From positions 719,245-783,244 of the forward strand of contig NZ_CP037895.1 of the NCBI RefSeq assembly GCF_004634385.1: a stretch of DNA of 64,000 nt. The letters are read 5' to 3'. The notes beneath the pieces were generated by a model. That model was not told the origin of the DNA. It saw only the letters and a list, made by a program, of their open reading frames with translations, and ran no database searches. Origin of the DNA: Thermaerobacter sp. FW80. GTDB taxonomy: Bacteria > Bacillota > Sulfobacillia > Thermaerobacterales > Thermaerobacteraceae. Below are positions 10,990 to 17,973 of this stretch, piece after piece (the first letter of the stretch is position 1; each line of letters begins with the position of its first letter). The position numbers were made by a program, and so were the translations under genes.

Positions 10990-11442
10990 ATGACGGGGAC
11001 GAACGCAGCCCGCTCAGCCCATGGCGCGGCCGACCGCCAGGGAGCGGGGCGGCCCGCCGCCGCCGAGGGCGCGGATCGCGGCGGCGCCGACTCCCACTCG
11101 TCGCACCCCCACGACACCCGAGAGGACGTCCTCTTGCGTCGCTGGGGCGAACCGCGGTTCCACGGTTGGCTCAGCCGTCGCCCCACCCGCTTCTTGGACA
11201 AGGTGAAGCAGTTCCTCTGGGGGTTGCTCTTCTTCGAGTGGTACCACGAGCTGCGCCACGTCCGCTCCCGCTACAACGACGTGATGAACCTGATCCTCTT
11301 TGGCGAGATGCTGGGCATCCCGTTGATGAACTCCTCCATCGGCCTGCGCCTGCTCCCCTACGCGCTGCCCGACCTGCACGCCTGGAAGCACCGCCAGTTG
11401 GAGGAGCTCGTGGTCGAGGAGCATGCGCCGCACATCCACTGA
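10990..11442 (+). CDS. Small MLGIP-family protein, copy A
   Basis: 150 residues from ATG at 10990 with CAGGAG upstream. The first ~50 residues are a polar, low-complexity lead. The conserved part (about 67-140) shares a clear pattern with the gene at 15796-16098: FLxK, then LWG or LYG, then GEMLGIP (GDMLGIP in the other), LRLLPYALP (LRILPYAVP) and WKxR. I do not recognise a named family. It is followed 11 bp later by a membrane protein gene, and both face the ArsA-like cluster. It ends with HAPHIH, which could bind a metal; that is a guess. Confidence 0.75.
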   Translation: MTGTNAARSAHGAADRQGAGRPAAAEGADRGGADSHSSHPHDTREDVLLRRWGEPRFHGWLSRRPTRFLDKVKQFLWGLLFFEWYHELRHVRSRYNDVMNLILFGEMLGIPLMNSSIGLRLLPYALPDLHAWKHRQLEELVVEEHAPHIH

Positions 11443-12731: not shown

Positions 12732-13475
12732 TCAGTGGCACCGCCAGCCGCGCACGGCGGCCTCCCAGGCCGCCTCCACCTCCGACTCGCCGCTCCCCGG
12801 CGCCGCCTCCAGCCGCACCGCGATGCGCCGCTTGGTCTCCGGGCAATCGACCACCAGCGCCCGCGCGGGGTGCCATCGTCCAGGGAAGCCCCGTCGCACC
12901 GCCCCCCGCGCCCACCAGCCGCGGTGACCGGCCAGTTCCAGCGTCCCATCGGTCGCGGAACGCGAGAGGAGACGCGCCGCCGGGGACGCCACCGGCCCTT
13001 CGCCAGCGCGATCGACGGCCGCTCGCGGGCGGACGTCCAGGAACAGCTCGACCCGCGCCGGCAGCCGACGCCTGCCGCCTCCCTCCCCGCGTCGCGCGAC
13101 CCGGGGGGACGCCGCCGTCGCGGTCCGCCCCTCGGCCCCCCCGTCCGATCTCCCGTCCCCCGTCCGCTGGACTGGGCGGCCGGCACCGGCGACCTCGGTT
13201 CCCTGTGCCGCCCCGCCCCGGGAATCCCCGGGCCCGGACCCGGTCCCGCCGGCGGTCGCCGCGAGCCACCAGTGACCCCGGGCGGCGGTGGCCCAACTGA
13301 TGCCGTCGCGCACCGCCCAGCGGTCCACCTCGGGCGGAAAGGCGCCGTCCCCCAGCCGCCAGCCGGCCGGTACGCCCAGCAGCAGGAGGTTGCACGTGCC
13401 GAAGACGACGCTCCGCACCGCCAGCAGGTAGGGGCAGACCGCGGACGTCCCCTCCCCCGGGCCCGGGCCGTTCAC
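12732..13475 (-). CDS. Uncharacterised protein coupled to ArsA-like ATPase 1
   Basis: 247 residues. The GTG start at 13475 overlaps the TGA stop of the ATPase gene (GTGA), which shows tight translational coupling. The first ~70 residues look folded (CPYLLAVRSVVFGTCNLLLLGVP, then ISWATAARGHWWLAA). A Gly/Ala/Arg-rich linker follows, then a second region with RVELFLDVRP, LELAGHRGWWARGAV and ALVVDCPETKRRIAVRLEA. No known domain is recognised. The layout suggests a partner or client factor of the ATPase. Confidence 0.65.
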   Translation of the reverse strand: MNGPGPGEGTSAVCPYLLAVRSVVFGTCNLLLLGVPAGWRLGDGAFPPEVDRWAVRDGISWATAARGHWWLAATAGGTGSGPGDSRGGAAQGTEVAGAGRPVQRTGDGRSDGGAEGRTATAASPRVARRGEGGGRRRLPARVELFLDVRPRAAVDRAGEGPVASPAARLLSRSATDGTLELAGHRGWWARGAVRRGFPGRWHPARALVVDCPETKRRIAVRLEAAPGSGESEVEAAWEAAVRGWRCH

Positions 13476-14503
13476 CCCGTCACCTGGGCCAGCGCCCAGT
13501 GCTGGTCGGGGTCGAACAGGTCGTCCACCGCCTGCTTCAGTGCCTCCAGCCCGTGGACCTCGCTCTTGTAGAGGGGCAGGTAGGCGCGAACCAGGTCGCC
13601 CAGCTCCCGCTGGATCTGCTCCAGGTACCCCGCCTGCTCCTCGTACTTGTTGCGCAGGTACTCGTCCTCGCTGGCCCGCTCCACCTCCTCGCCGCGGATG
13701 ACGCCGTTGACCAGCACCCCGCCCACGGGGATGTCGTAGGCCCGCACCATCTTGATGAACCGCGTGACCACGGAGATCGGCAGGGCCAGGGGCAAGGTGA
13801 CGAAGAAGAAGGCGGTCAACCGGGGGTCGACCAGTAGCTTCTTGACCGCCTTGAACCGCTCGTCCATGGCGATCAGGTCCGCCAGCATCGGATCCTTCTT
13901 GACTTCCTCCATCACCTTGTCCTTGCGGAAGCTGAGCTGCACCCGCAGGGAGAGCGCCTCCTTGCGCGACTCGATCATGCGCTGCAGCCACAGCCCGTAG
14001 ATCTTGGACAGGCCGATCAGCCGCACCGCGTTGGCCACCGCCGCCGTGTCGAAGACGACCATGTCGTACTCCTGGCCCTCGCGCAGCATGATGTCGACCA
14101 TCTTGTCGAACATGGCCGACTCCTCGAAGGCGGGGTTGGTCACCGCGATGTCGATGAAGGGCTTCGCGTCCACCGGGATGTCCGCGTACTTCAGGAATTC
14201 TCGCACCCGCTGGGCGATGTTCTCGCGGTAACGGGCCACCACGTCGGAGGCGTCGACCTCCACGGCGTGGAGGTTGGGCACCCCCTGCACCGGCCGCACC
14301 TGGCCACCCGAGAGGTCCTGCCCGAACACCGACGTCAACGAGTGGACGGGGTTCAGGCTGGCCAGCAGCGTGCGCTTGCCTTGTTCGGCGAAGTGGTACG
14401 CCAGCACGGCGGCGCAGATCGTCTTGCCCACGCCGCCCTTGCCCCCGGTGAAGACGAACTTCAGATCGGGATGCCTCTCCAGGAAGGCGCTGATGTGCTC
14501 CAC
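13472..14503 (-). CDS. ArsA/Get3-like ATPase 1 (atypical switch II)
   Basis: 343 residues from GTG at 14503, set by an AAGGGGGG ribosome site 7 nt upstream. It belongs to the SIMIBI class of P-loop ATPases. The deviant Walker A is GGKGGVGKT (about 20-28) with the signature lysine at about 22. Where ArsA/Get3 proteins have DTAPTGH, this protein has DTAAVANAVRLI, so the TGH part is gone. No ArsA metal-site cysteine triad is seen, and the length matches a single-domain Get3-like subunit, not the doubled ArsA. It probably pairs with ATPase 2 upstream. Its role is unknown. Confidence 0.85.
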   Translation of the reverse strand: MEHISAFLERHPDLKFVFTGGKGGVGKTICAAVLAYHFAEQGKRTLLASLNPVHSLTSVFGQDLSGGQVRPVQGVPNLHAVEVDASDVVARYRENIAQRVREFLKYADIPVDAKPFIDIAVTNPAFEESAMFDKMVDIMLREGQEYDMVVFDTAAVANAVRLIGLSKIYGLWLQRMIESRKEALSLRVQLSFRKDKVMEEVKKDPMLADLIAMDERFKAVKKLLVDPRLTAFFFVTLPLALPISVVTRFIKMVRAYDIPVGGVLVNGVIRGEEVERASEDEYLRNKYEEQAGYLEQIQRELGDLVRAYLPLYKSEVHGLEALKQAVDDLFDPDQHWALAQVTG

Positions 14504-14696
14504 CCTCGTTCCCCCCTTGCGGACGAACCGGCCGCGGCCGCACCGGCCGGCGAGGCCCGCCGGGCCCATCGCACCGGGCATCGGCGTTCCCCGGCGGCAC
14601 GGCTGCGGCCGGTGCCGGGTCCGGTCGACAGCGGTGCTGGAGCCACCCCTGCGTCGGGCGCCCCACGGTCCGGCGGGCCGACGCGTCCCGGGCACC
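14504..14696. other. Spacer between the two ArsA-like genes
   Basis: 193 bp without a supported gene. It carries an exact copy of the dispersed word GGACGAACCGGC at 14521-14532, just upstream of the ATPase 1 ribosome site. The frame stays open through it, so an N-terminal extension of ATPase 1 cannot be excluded, but the composition is repetitive. Confidence 0.5.
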
Positions 14697-15713
14697 TCAC
14701 GCCTCCAGGGCGATCTCGCAACGCATCAGGTACCGGGACGCCTGCTCGATCATCGCCAGGCCCTTGGGCTCGCGGGTGAACATCGGCACCACCGCCTGGA
14801 CCCGGTCGCCGAACTTGCGGGCGATCTCCGCCAGGTGCTCCTGCTGCATCAGGACGCGGTTGCGCAGGTACTCGGAGGTGCCCGGCCGGTCCAGGAGCTC
14901 GCGCGGATACACCTGGTTGACCACCAGCCCCGACATCTCCATCCCCAGGGCGTTGAACATCGCCAGGGCCCGCTCCGTGTCCAGGATCGCCATCTTCTCG
15001 GGGATCAGCACCATGAAGAAGGCCGTGCGCCGTCGATCGGTGATCAGATCGGTGAAGGCCTTGATCTTGTTGCGGATGTCGATGAGCTCCTGCATCACCG
15101 CGTCTTCGTGGCCCTTCTCGCCCTTGAGCGTGGCGGCGATGGCGTCGTACTCGGCCACCTTGGAGCGAGCCTCGGTGATCTTCTCCACCCACTTGGAGAG
15201 GATGTCGGCCATGGCCACCATGCGCACGCCGTGGCCGAAGGGCGGCATGTCGAAGATGTAGATGTCGTACTGGTGCGCGGCCACGAGCTCGGCCATGGCG
15301 TCGTAGGTGGCCGACTCGTACATCGCCGGCTCGGCGGAGGTGGAGTCGATGTACTCCTCGATCTCCTTGGGCACGGCGTCGAGGCCGTACATGTCCTTGA
15401 TCTTCTGCTTCACCGACGCCTGGTACTCGGCCACCCGCCGGTCGGCGTCGATCTCCACGACGAACAGGTTGGGAGCCACCTCGATCTCGCCCAGGCCGTA
15501 GAAGTTGCGCTCGAAGATGTCGCTGAGGGACGCCTGGGGATCGGTGCTGAAGAGCAGCGTCCGCTTCTTCTTCACCTGGGACATGTACCAGGCCAGGGAC
15601 GAGCTGGACGTCGTCTTGCCCAGTCCGCCCTTGCCCGCGAAGATGACGACCTCCACGTCGGGGTGCGCCTCGAAGTACGCCTCGAGACCCCGGGGCCGCA
15701 CCAGGGTGGGCAT
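14697..15713 (-). CDS. ArsA/Get3-like ATPase 2 (canonical motifs)
   Basis: 338 residues. The deviant Walker A is AGKGGLGKTT (27-36). Switch I follows the FSTDPQASLSDIF pattern. Switch II is DMPPFGHGVRMV, retaining the GH of the family DTAPTGH. No arsenite-binding Cys triad is visible. The C-terminal half has LVVNQVYPREL, close to the family VVNxVLP motif. It is 193 bp upstream of ATPase 1 and 82 bp downstream of MLGIP protein B. I infer a nucleotide-driven targeting or metallochaperone-like role, with the substrate unknown. Confidence 0.88.
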   Translation of the reverse strand: MPTLVRPRGLEAYFEAHPDVEVVIFAGKGGLGKTTSSSSLAWYMSQVKKKRTLLFSTDPQASLSDIFERNFYGLGEIEVAPNLFVVEIDADRRVAEYQASVKQKIKDMYGLDAVPKEIEEYIDSTSAEPAMYESATYDAMAELVAAHQYDIYIFDMPPFGHGVRMVAMADILSKWVEKITEARSKVAEYDAIAATLKGEKGHEDAVMQELIDIRNKIKAFTDLITDRRRTAFFMVLIPEKMAILDTERALAMFNALGMEMSGLVVNQVYPRELLDRPGTSEYLRNRVLMQQEHLAEIARKFGDRVQAVVPMFTREPKGLAMIEQASRYLMRCEIALEA

Positions 15714-15795: not shown

Positions 15796-16098
15796 TCAGT
15801 AGATGGCGTCGGTGAAGTCGCGCTCGCGGAAGACCCGCTGTTTCCACGACTCGATGTTGGGCACCGCGTAGGGCAGGATCCGCAGGCTGTAGTAGGGCGG
15901 CAGCACGGGGATGCCCAACATGTCGCCCAGGGTGATGAACATGAACAGATGTTCCAGGTGCATGCGCGTGCGCAACGCGGCCGTCACGTTGCCGTGGCTG
16001 GCCATCCCGTAGAGCACGCCGCGCAGCTTGGTGAGGAAGCCGCCCTTCTGCTGCGGACCGCCCGTGTCGGCGCCCGCTGGCCCCTTGCGTCCGAACAT
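15796..16098 (-). CDS. Small MLGIP-family protein, copy B
   Basis: 100 residues from ATG at 16098 (GGAGGGGAAG upstream); an in-frame start at 16131 would add 11 residues. After a polar lead the conserved core reads GGFLTKLRGVLYG, then LFMFITLGDMLGIP, YSLRILPYAVP and WKQRVFRERDF. It is a paralogue of the protein at 10990-11442. It lies between cstA and ATPase 2 on the same strand. No signal peptide. The MLGIP part is moderately hydrophobic and may be the piece the ATPases bind. That is inference. Confidence 0.8.
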   Translation of the reverse strand: MFGRKGPAGADTGGPQQKGGFLTKLRGVLYGMASHGNVTAALRTRMHLEHLFMFITLGDMLGIPVLPPYYSLRILPYAVPNIESWKQRVFRERDFTDAIY

Positions 16099-16200: not shown

Positions 16201-17973
16201 TCAGTCGCCCGGGGCCGCCTGCGGCTGGGCCAGCATGCCGGCCTTGGCGCGGCTGTAGGCCTGCAGGGTCAGGACCGCCATGCGCAGGCCCAGGACGAAC
16301 AGCGCCACGCCGATCAGCACCGACGCCCAGTCGATCAGGTTGGCCACGGTGGGCGCCATCGTCTTCAGCGGATCCTGGGTCAGCGTCTTGGCCGGCCCGC
16401 CCAGGGCCGCCTGCAGGAACCGGATCGTCTGCACGGCGATGGCCGCCAGGGTGGTGACGATCATGAACAGCGCCGGGAGCAGCGTGTACCGCGTCGGTGC
16501 CTTCACCCGCGCCAGGTGGATGGTGATCAGCATCAGGGCGAGTCCCGCCAGCAGCTGGTTCGACCCGCCGAAGAACAGCCAGATGTTGTTCCACGAGCCG
16601 CTGACCGCCATGATCCAGGGCAGCAGCAGCCCCACGAAGGTCGACACGTGCTTCTGGGCCAGGATGCCCTCGCCGAACACCTCCACCGACACCAGTCGCC
16701 AGAAGCGGGTGACCAGCGCCTGGACGGTGATGGCGTAGATCACCAGCACCGTCCCGTAGAAGACCTGGATGGCCGCGTCGGACATGAACAGACCGAGGAT
16801 CGGCTCGGTCAGCAGGGTGGCGCCGTAGACCCACGCGCCCACGCTGGCGCCGCCCAGTTCGGCGATCCGCTCGGGGCTCAGCACCATGTACGAGGCCAGG
16901 GACACCAGCGCTAGCAGGCCCTCTCCCAGCATGGCCCCGGCGCCCACCGGATGGGCGTCGGGCTCGACGTCCAGCTGCTTGGCCGTGCTGGACGAGCTGA
17001 CCAGGCTGTGCCAGCCGGAGATGGCGCCGCAGGCGATGGCGGTGAACAGCACGGGCCACATCGGGTTACCCCCGGCGGCGAAGCTGCCCGCCGGACCCCA
17101 GAAGCCCTTCCAGCCGGGCTGCGCCAGGGTCACGCCGGTGATGGGCGTGATCAGCGCGCCGAGCAGGATCACCAGCACGGCGAACATCGCCGGGAAGAAG
17201 GAGACGTAGTTGAAGGGCTGGATGAAGGTCGGCAGCGGCAGGATGGACGCGACGTACAGGATGGCGCAGCACAGCGCCGCCCACACCCAGACGTTGAAGT
17301 TCAGGGCGCCCTGGGCGCCCAGGTTCAGCCGCACGGCGCGGCCGACCTCCGTGGACCCCAGCCAGAAGGACAGGATCATCAGGACGAAGGCGAGGAGGGT
17401 CACGGCGCCCACGTTCATGCGTCGCTTGTACAGCAGCTGGCCGCAGATCACGCCGGTCAGGATGATGCCGACCGTCGCCACGAAGGAGCCCGCGAAGGTG
17501 TTCCAGAAGACGGCGATCAGCTGGATGAAGGTCGCCGAGATGATCAGCAGGTAGAACAGGATGAAGCCCAGCAGCGTGCTGCGCCCCGCGGCGCCGGTGA
17601 ACTCGTAGGTGATGGGGCCGAAGGACCGTCCCTGGTTGCGCACCGACAGCATGATGGACCCGTAGTCCTGGAGCCAGCCGATGAAGAAGTTGCCGAAGAT
17701 GATCCACAGGAGCGCCGGGACCCAGCCGAACTGCAACGCCACGAAGGGCCCCAGGATCGGGCCCAGCGCCGCCACGCTCTTGTACTGGTAGCCCCACAGC
17801 ACGTAGCGGCTGACGGGGAAGTACTCCACCCCGTCGGTGTACATGTGGGCGGGGGTGGTGCGGTTGGCGTCGGGTTGCCAGACCGTGCGGTCGTACCACC
17901 GCCCGTAGACGAAGTAGGCGATGCCGTAGGCGATCAAAGCCAGCACCACGAACATCGCCGGCGAATTCAGCAT
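16201..17973 (-). CDS. cstA: Carbon starvation protein A-type transporter
   Basis: 590 residues with about 15 hydrophobic segments, matching the short CstA type. The N-terminus LALIAYGIAYFVYGRWYDR and the motif GYQYKSVAALGPILGPFVAL are typical, as is GAISGWHSLVSSSSTAKQL. Known relatives are proton-coupled or sodium-coupled importers of peptides or pyruvate. It is the first gene on the strand that leads to MLGIP protein B and the ArsA-like genes, with a 102-bp spacer, so cotranscription is possible. Confidence 0.95.
   Translation of the reverse strand: MLNSPAMFVVLALIAYGIAYFVYGRWYDRTVWQPDANRTTPAHMYTDGVEYFPVSRYVLWGYQYKSVAALGPILGPFVALQFGWVPALLWIIFGNFFIGWLQDYGSIMLSVRNQGRSFGPITYEFTGAAGRSTLLGFILFYLLIISATFIQLIAVFWNTFAGSFVATVGIILTGVICGQLLYKRRMNVGAVTLLAFVLMILSFWLGSTEVGRAVRLNLGAQGALNFNVWVWAALCCAILYVASILPLPTFIQPFNYVSFFPAMFAVLVILLGALITPITGVTLAQPGWKGFWGPAGSFAAGGNPMWPVLFTAIACGAISGWHSLVSSSSTAKQLDVEPDAHPVGAGAMLGEGLLALVSLASYMVLSPERIAELGGASVGAWVYGATLLTEPILGLFMSDAAIQVFYGTVLVIYAITVQALVTRFWRLVSVEVFGEGILAQKHVSTFVGLLLPWIMAVSGSWNNIWLFFGGSNQLLAGLALMLITIHLARVKAPTRYTLLPALFMIVTTLAAIAVQTIRFLQAALGGPAKTLTQDPLKTMAPTVANLIDWASVLIGVALFVLGLRMAVLTLQAYSRAKAGMLAQPQAAPGD

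Follow-up and report, generated by a model that had tools for sequence, protein, structure and literature searches.

Two neighbouring genes of Thermaerobacter sp. FW80 encode an unequal pair of ArsA/Get3-like ATPases. They lie on the minus strand of a 64,000-nucleotide stretch of contig NZ_CP037895.1 (positions 719,245 to 783,244 of the forward strand; hereafter the window, whose own numbering is used throughout), in an operon that also encodes a CstA-family transporter and a small protein of the cory (CstX) type. One enzyme, ATPase 2 (A2), retains the switch I aspartate and the switch II Gly-His (GH) of the catalytic machinery; the other, ATPase 1 (A1), has Asn in place of that aspartate and Ala-Asn (AN) in place of GH. 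Both keep the lysines of the P-loop. The asymmetry is fixed in the genomes that carry the pair, far beyond chance. We think it probable that A1 and A2 form a heterodimer in which A2 would provide the hydrolysing site and A1 a site that holds ATP, and that this dimer would act with cory on CstA. Operons of this kind are known; the asymmetric pair is a new variant. A preliminary description of this DNA had recorded the difference in switch II. It mentioned neither the switch I change nor the CstA/CstX operon, nor the 2010 paper in which such operons are described.

Catalytic residues of A1 and A2

The two genes and their motifs are as follows.
14697..15713, minus strand: ATPase 2 (A2), ArsA/Get3-like, 338 amino acids, catalytic Asp and GH retained (TIGR00345, 223.6 bits; PF02374, E 6e-67)
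15612..15638, minus strand: A2 P-loop AGKGGLGKT, with signature and Walker lysines
15528..15542, minus strand: A2 switch I DPQAS (in the context STDPQAS), catalytic Asp58 retained
15231..15251, minus strand: A2 switch II DMPPFGH (D155-MPPFG-H161), GH retained
13472..14503, minus strand: ATPase 1 (A1), ArsA/Get3-like, 343 amino acids, degenerate catalytic residues, GTG start (TIGR00345, 206.6 bits)
14420..14446, minus strand: A1 P-loop GGKGGVGKT, with signature and Walker lysines
14339..14353, minus strand: A1 switch I NPVHS (in the context SLNPVHS), Asn51 (codon 14353-14351) in place of the catalytic Asp
14030..14050, minus strand: A1 switch II DTAAVAN (D152-TAAVA-N158), AN in place of GH

Both reading frames are intact. 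A1 starts at the GTG at 14503, which is preceded by a AAGGGGGG-like ribosome site; the mechanically called open reading frame begins too early, at 14695.

The preliminary description was right that A1 has DTAAVAN where A2 has DMPPFGH, and right that each protein has the signature lysine of a deviant Walker A. The alignment that it proposed as a check leaves the A1 motifs in register: against Methanocaldococcus Get3 (3ug6), DTAAVAN falls ungapped on DTAPTGH and SLNPVHS on STDPAHS, which rules out a normal switch II displaced to another part of A1. The combination of switch I Asp and switch II GH that marks a catalytically active Get3 or ArsA is present in A2 and missing from A1.

Of the two changes in A1, the one from Asp to Asn in switch I is more telling than the loss in switch II. 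The switch I Asp of Get3 positions the attacking water (PMC10248533). Get3 Asp57 is essential for hydrolysis, and the D57N variant binds ATP without hydrolysing it (PMC12506534); in human TRC40, the equivalent D74N causes the same client mislocalization as the D74E trap (PMC6633398). Judged by its sequence and by this trap behaviour, A1 is a natural carrier of the D-to-N substitution that laboratories have engineered as an ATP trap of Get3.

Get3 and ArsA serve as models for the working of symmetric or near-symmetric ATPase dimers, and the need for both sites has usually been probed with engineered mutants. Evolution appears to have made the trap mutation once and to have kept it, in bacteria and archaea, beside an intact partner. 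The one-site question thereby becomes testable in natural proteins.

Fixation across genomes

Relatives were drawn from 61 genomes (the window's own included), from loci on named genome contigs (240 confirmed, of which the best 80 were used) and from three phylum-wide searches. After identical and contained rows had been dropped, 251 rows were sorted by profile score. Switch I has Asn in 94 of 94 A1 rows (95 in total), Asp in 89 of 89 A2 rows (93 in total) and Asp in all 63 single-copy relatives, the denominators being the non-identical rows that have a residue at that column. The only A1-sorted row with Asp, L121, is a mis-sorted single-copy ATPase and is counted with the single-copy group. 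At the GH position, A1 reads AN in 90 of 93 rows, AH in three and GH in none, and A2 reads GH in 91 of 91. Every A1 and A2 row that has a residue at these columns retains both lysines, signature and Walker, and the Walker Thr. These rows include close relatives; in a thinned set of 21 A1 and 22 A2 rows the Asp and Asn states are still uniform. A profile-based sort might in principle have preferred Asn rows, but the scores of full-length A1 proteins lie far above those of the single-copy rows (at most about 220 bits). With Asn fixed in every A1 row and the frame intact, a sequencing error or decay of the A1 gene is ruled out.

The three A1 proteins with AH (L053, L080 and L237) are archaeal or archaeal-like. 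They read DTAPVAH, yet their switch I already has the Asn, a combination suggesting that the change from Asp to Asn preceded the loss of His, or else that His was regained.

Proposed division of labour in the pair

We propose that A1 and A2 together make up a dimer of the ArsA/Get3 type, each gene supplying one half. The signature lysine of Get3 sits in the site of the partner subunit. By this analogy, the A2 site would be complete for ATP hydrolysis, having its own Asp58, Asp155 and GH together with the A1 signature lysine in trans. The A1 site retains its nucleotide-binding elements and, with the catalytic Asp replaced by Asn and GH by AN, should bind ATP and hold it, not cut it; A1 would then be an ATP-loaded clamp or sensor. 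Such a division would also account for the unchanged lysines of A1 in the face of its catalytic loss.

The heterodimer could instead have two working but unequal sites, with Asn51 tolerated or another residue serving in place of the Asp, just as both halves of ArsA catalyse. The A1 binding residues are indeed conserved as strictly as those of A2, and NosGet3d (Get3d) hydrolyses ATP even with Glu at the switch I position (PMC10248533). However, the same D-to-N change makes a hydrolysis-dead trap of Get3, and A1 has also lost the switch II GH and the next switch I Asp. We consider two working sites unlikely.

Origin and pairing

In a tree of 85 rows, A1, A2 and the two together each form one clade against all single-copy relatives (support 100/99 each), and the A1 and A2 subtrees mirror each other in broad outline. 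By this phylogeny the arrangement has a single origin: A1 and A2 stem from one duplication, of a lone ATPase that most likely worked as a homodimer. Within one locus, A1 and A2 are now 24–39% identical.

The two genes travel together. A1 is found in 78 genomes (22 of the 61 in the first sample; 8 of 398, three of them new, 39 of 400 and 14 of 29 in the phylum-wide searches), and A2 is adjacent to it in 74 of these. In the four others (G458, G561, G625 and G655), A1 begins 378–783 bases from the start of the contig, and a cut A2 fragment stands ahead of A1 in three of the four (loci L200, L216 and L208). One genome, G689 (L057 phylum), has two A1–A2 pairs.

Of 51 columns that single-copy relatives conserve, both proteins keep 23; 4 are lost in A1 only, 5 in A2 only and 6 in both, and 13 are mixed. 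A1 alone has lost the switch I Asp, an Asp that follows it and GH; A2 alone has lost, among others, the switch I His and the TA of DTAP.

These data bear on a second possibility, that the cell makes two separate homodimers, A2/A2 as a working ATPase and A1/A1 as a clamp or decoy, bound to ATP, that competes with it for one partner. Get3 is a homodimer, A2 retains its catalytic Asp and GH, and we infer the contact between A1 and A2. Nevertheless, one-to-one pairing in nearly all the genomes, the matched divergence of the two proteins and their partly complementary losses at conserved columns argue against separate homodimers, which seem to us quite improbable.

Predicted structure of the pair

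Among the loci collected, we found no open reading frame with both P-loops, that is, no natural A2–A1 fusion that would serve as evidence of contact. In six loci A2 and A1 lie in the same reading frame, separated by one or two stops; reading the stop as Gly gave a joined chain and six aligned rows. The joined chain of L066, a relative's pair and not the window's own, was modelled with a predicted local distance difference test (pLDDT) score of 72 and a predicted template modelling (pTM) score of 0.59. The model superposes on both halves of ArsA 1ihu (518 residues, root mean square deviation 3.6 Å, Z 26.7) and on ArsA 9nbo (544 residues, 4.1 Å, Z 27.4). As modelled, the A1–A2 pair is compatible with an ArsA-like face-to-face dimer, a result that implies no preference over homodimers.

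The preliminary description had proposed an obligate heterodimer with one active and one regulatory site. The one-sided catalytic loss is fixed, which bears out the asymmetry at its core; the constant pairing, the single duplication and the superposition of the joined model on the ArsA halves go some way towards a probable heterodimer, which may or may not be obligate.

Relation to Get3 and ArsA

Both proteins score above the curated TIGR00345 (TRC40/GET3/ArsA) cut-off of 135 bits, and both have the deviant Walker A with its signature lysine (GKGGVGKT in A1, GKGGLGKT in A2). The archaeal Get3/TRC40 structures 3zq6 and 3ug6 are the nearest solved relatives of A2 by sequence and are among the nearest of A1. 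The pair resembles Get3/TRC40 in its fold, its deviant Walker A, its switch I and switch II positions and an A-loop Asn. It differs in that Get3/TRC40 is a homodimer with two equal sites, the canonical kind of which has a CXXC zinc site where the subunits of the dimer meet; A1 and A2 carry one Cys each and so lack the CXXC of zinc-linked Get3. Fused ArsA (Escherichia coli, Leptospirillum) is like the pair in having two non-identical ATPase halves, both overlaid by the joined A2–A1 model, and unlike it in being a single polypeptide with arsenic ligands. The motifs of its two halves show no significant difference (PMC2963123, section 3.12).

The Pfam label of these proteins, anion-transporting ATPase (PF02374), invites the reading that they power an arsenite pump, as ArsA does, or belong to an arsenic operon. 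We regard this as very improbable indeed. The single Cys of each protein is not the Cys triad of ArsA, and the neighbouring gene encodes CstA. Against the ArsA pump profile TIGR04291 the two window ATPases, which are separate genes, score 105.4 and 94.2 bits for a cut-off of 650, and no arsenic gene was found among the eight window proteins scanned by profile libraries. An arsenic function of A1 and A2 is rejected on context, Cys content and profile scores.

It had also been claimed in the preliminary description that the pair is unlike homodimeric Get3 or fused ArsA. That was too strong, since other two-gene pairs exist: Mycobacterium tuberculosis Rv3679/Rv3680 (BagA/BagB; PDB 6bs3, entitled 'Get3-like A and B') are Get3-like ATPases from a single operon and are reported to interact (PMC10597346), and Alkaliphilus has two single-domain ArsAs (PMC2963123). 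The mycobacterial BagA and BagB profiles (NF053622 and NF053621) give 44.1 and 33.5 bits with A1 and 35 and 27.2 bits with A2, far below their cut-offs of 400 and 521 bits. We know of no link between Rv3679/Rv3680 and CstA.

The CstA operon

The other genes of the system in the window are these.
16201..17973, minus strand: CstA-family transporter, first gene of the operon, 590 amino acids (Pfam PF02554 CstA, E 1e-96)
15796..16098, minus strand: cory1, small protein of the CstX type, 100 amino acids, C-terminus DAIY, without a CC tail (NF041419 cory-CC-star, E 9e-8)
11176..11442, plus strand: cory2, second cory/CstX paralogue, C-terminus HIH (NF041419, E 2.5e-8), conserved in relatives; the coordinates cover the core domain and the stop, and the start (~11176) is approximate

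A promoter and terminator scan gave nothing above chance. The gene neighbourhood itself recurs: of 49 related two-ATPase loci, 41 have CstA (on the same strand in 40, upstream in 38) and 47 have a cory gene. Five of the eight loci without CstA have fewer than 500 bases upstream.

CstA-CstX-ArsA operons were described by Castillo and Saier in 2010 (PMC2963123), and their gene set of CstA, a small CstX and a single-domain ArsA of ~330 amino acids is the one found here. Cory1 fits CstX (~90 amino acids) in size and place, and CstX is here presumed to be the cory family. Castillo and Saier proposed that ArsA energises CstA via CstX, and read the phylogenies of the three proteins as co-function in transport. 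Their cluster 15 includes adjacent ArsA pairs in Pyrobaculum arsenaticum, which has two CstX, and in Symbiobacterium thermophilum; in our data, loci labelled Pyrobaculum and Symbiobacterium (L054 and L063) fall in the A1/A2 clade. They further noted that the SXD Asp of single-domain ArsAs 'can be substituted only by N', and suggested homodimers. In the parts of their text that we read, this Asn is not tied to one member of a pair, to loss of switch II, to a single duplication or to an inactive partner. Searches of open-licence papers for cory-CC-star, for CstA/CstX with ArsA or Get3 and for Get3/ArsA asymmetry listed no paper that appears to describe an active/inactive pair.

We suggest that the proposed heterodimer and its cory (CstX) subunits act on the neighbouring CstA, by energising, gating or assembling it. 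A bolder form of this proposal is that A1 is a natural and ancient 'D57N' Get3, an ATP-locked pseudo-ATPase that has become fixed in both bacteria and archaea as the mandatory partner of its active paralogue, the two making with cory an asymmetric ATP motor that drives or gates uptake by CstA. We put this forward tentatively. If true, it would mean that a family of transporters regarded as symporters has a version coupled to ATP. The pair also gives a handle on the role of ArsA-like ATPases beside CstA, a link proposed in 2010 with no visible follow-up in the open-licence literature searched.

The ATPases might instead be a Get3-like targeting or assembly chaperone for the membrane insertion of cory or CstA, not a driver or gate of transport; this is possible, if doubtful, and compatible with a heterodimer. 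It would suit the closeness of both proteins to the Get3/TRC40 structures 3zq6 and 3ug6, and the nature of cory, which is small and mostly helical with a hydrophobic stretch. It sits less well with E. coli CstA, which works with YbdD (PMC5847655) and has no ArsA homologue beside its locus, or with the phylogenies that were read as transport co-function (PMC2963123).

Weighing the proposed heterodimer

Several observations count against a catalytically one-sided heterodimer acting on CstA. Three archaeal A1 proteins retain the switch II His. A2 is not simply canonical either, since conserved residues are missing from it too (switch I has QA for AH, and the TA of DTAP is gone). The correlation of A1 with A2 distances (r 0.97 across 61 loci) is what any gene pair passed on as one block would be expected to show. 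Confidence in the joined model is moderate; it was built on six rows and contains an artificial linker. Finally, 3 of the 49 two-ATPase loci have room upstream and show no CstA nearby.

Variation among cory proteins

Cory1 is predicted to fold as a helical hairpin, and a fold search against the PDB gave nothing below E 0.001, with one non-significant match. Neither window protein is a cory-CC-star protein by the NF041419 profile, which has a cut-off of 80 bits and calls for a CC tail: cory1 scores 32 bits and ends in DAIY, and cory2 scores 33.8 bits and ends in HIH. CC tails are the rule beside single ATPases. In 51 single-ATPase loci (general Get3 and ArsA included), 38 have cory, 35 of these also have CstA, and the cory C-terminus is CC in 33 of the 38; it is CC in none of the two-ATPase loci. 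One example of a single-ATPase cory gene is L133:3183-3380, and others are found among L081-L132.

E. coli offers a parallel. There the small protein YbdD is required for CstA-dependent pyruvate uptake (PMC5847655). Its C-terminus, RCC, resembles the CC tail of single-ATPase cory proteins, whereas its locus shows no ATPase gene beside it. Profile comparison of cory with YbdD found no homology (probability 1%). As both have CC tails without profile similarity, such an ending may be a functional trait common to CstA partners.

The idea that two cory copies strictly match two ATPases was not upheld. Two cory genes are present in 25 of the 49 two-ATPase loci, a count that leaves out one spurious 21-bit match in L076, so that a second cory accompanies about half of these systems. 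A whole-genome search of 20 genomes found at least two cory genes in 11, and none of the 51 single-ATPase loci has more than one. In most close relatives of the window the second cory has a His-rich tail (HIH, HMH or HVH), not CC. Single CstA-linked ATPases of haloarchaea (L116, L120, L122 and L126) have DTAPTGS for DTAPTGH, and the cory tail in these loci is YHF, again not CC.

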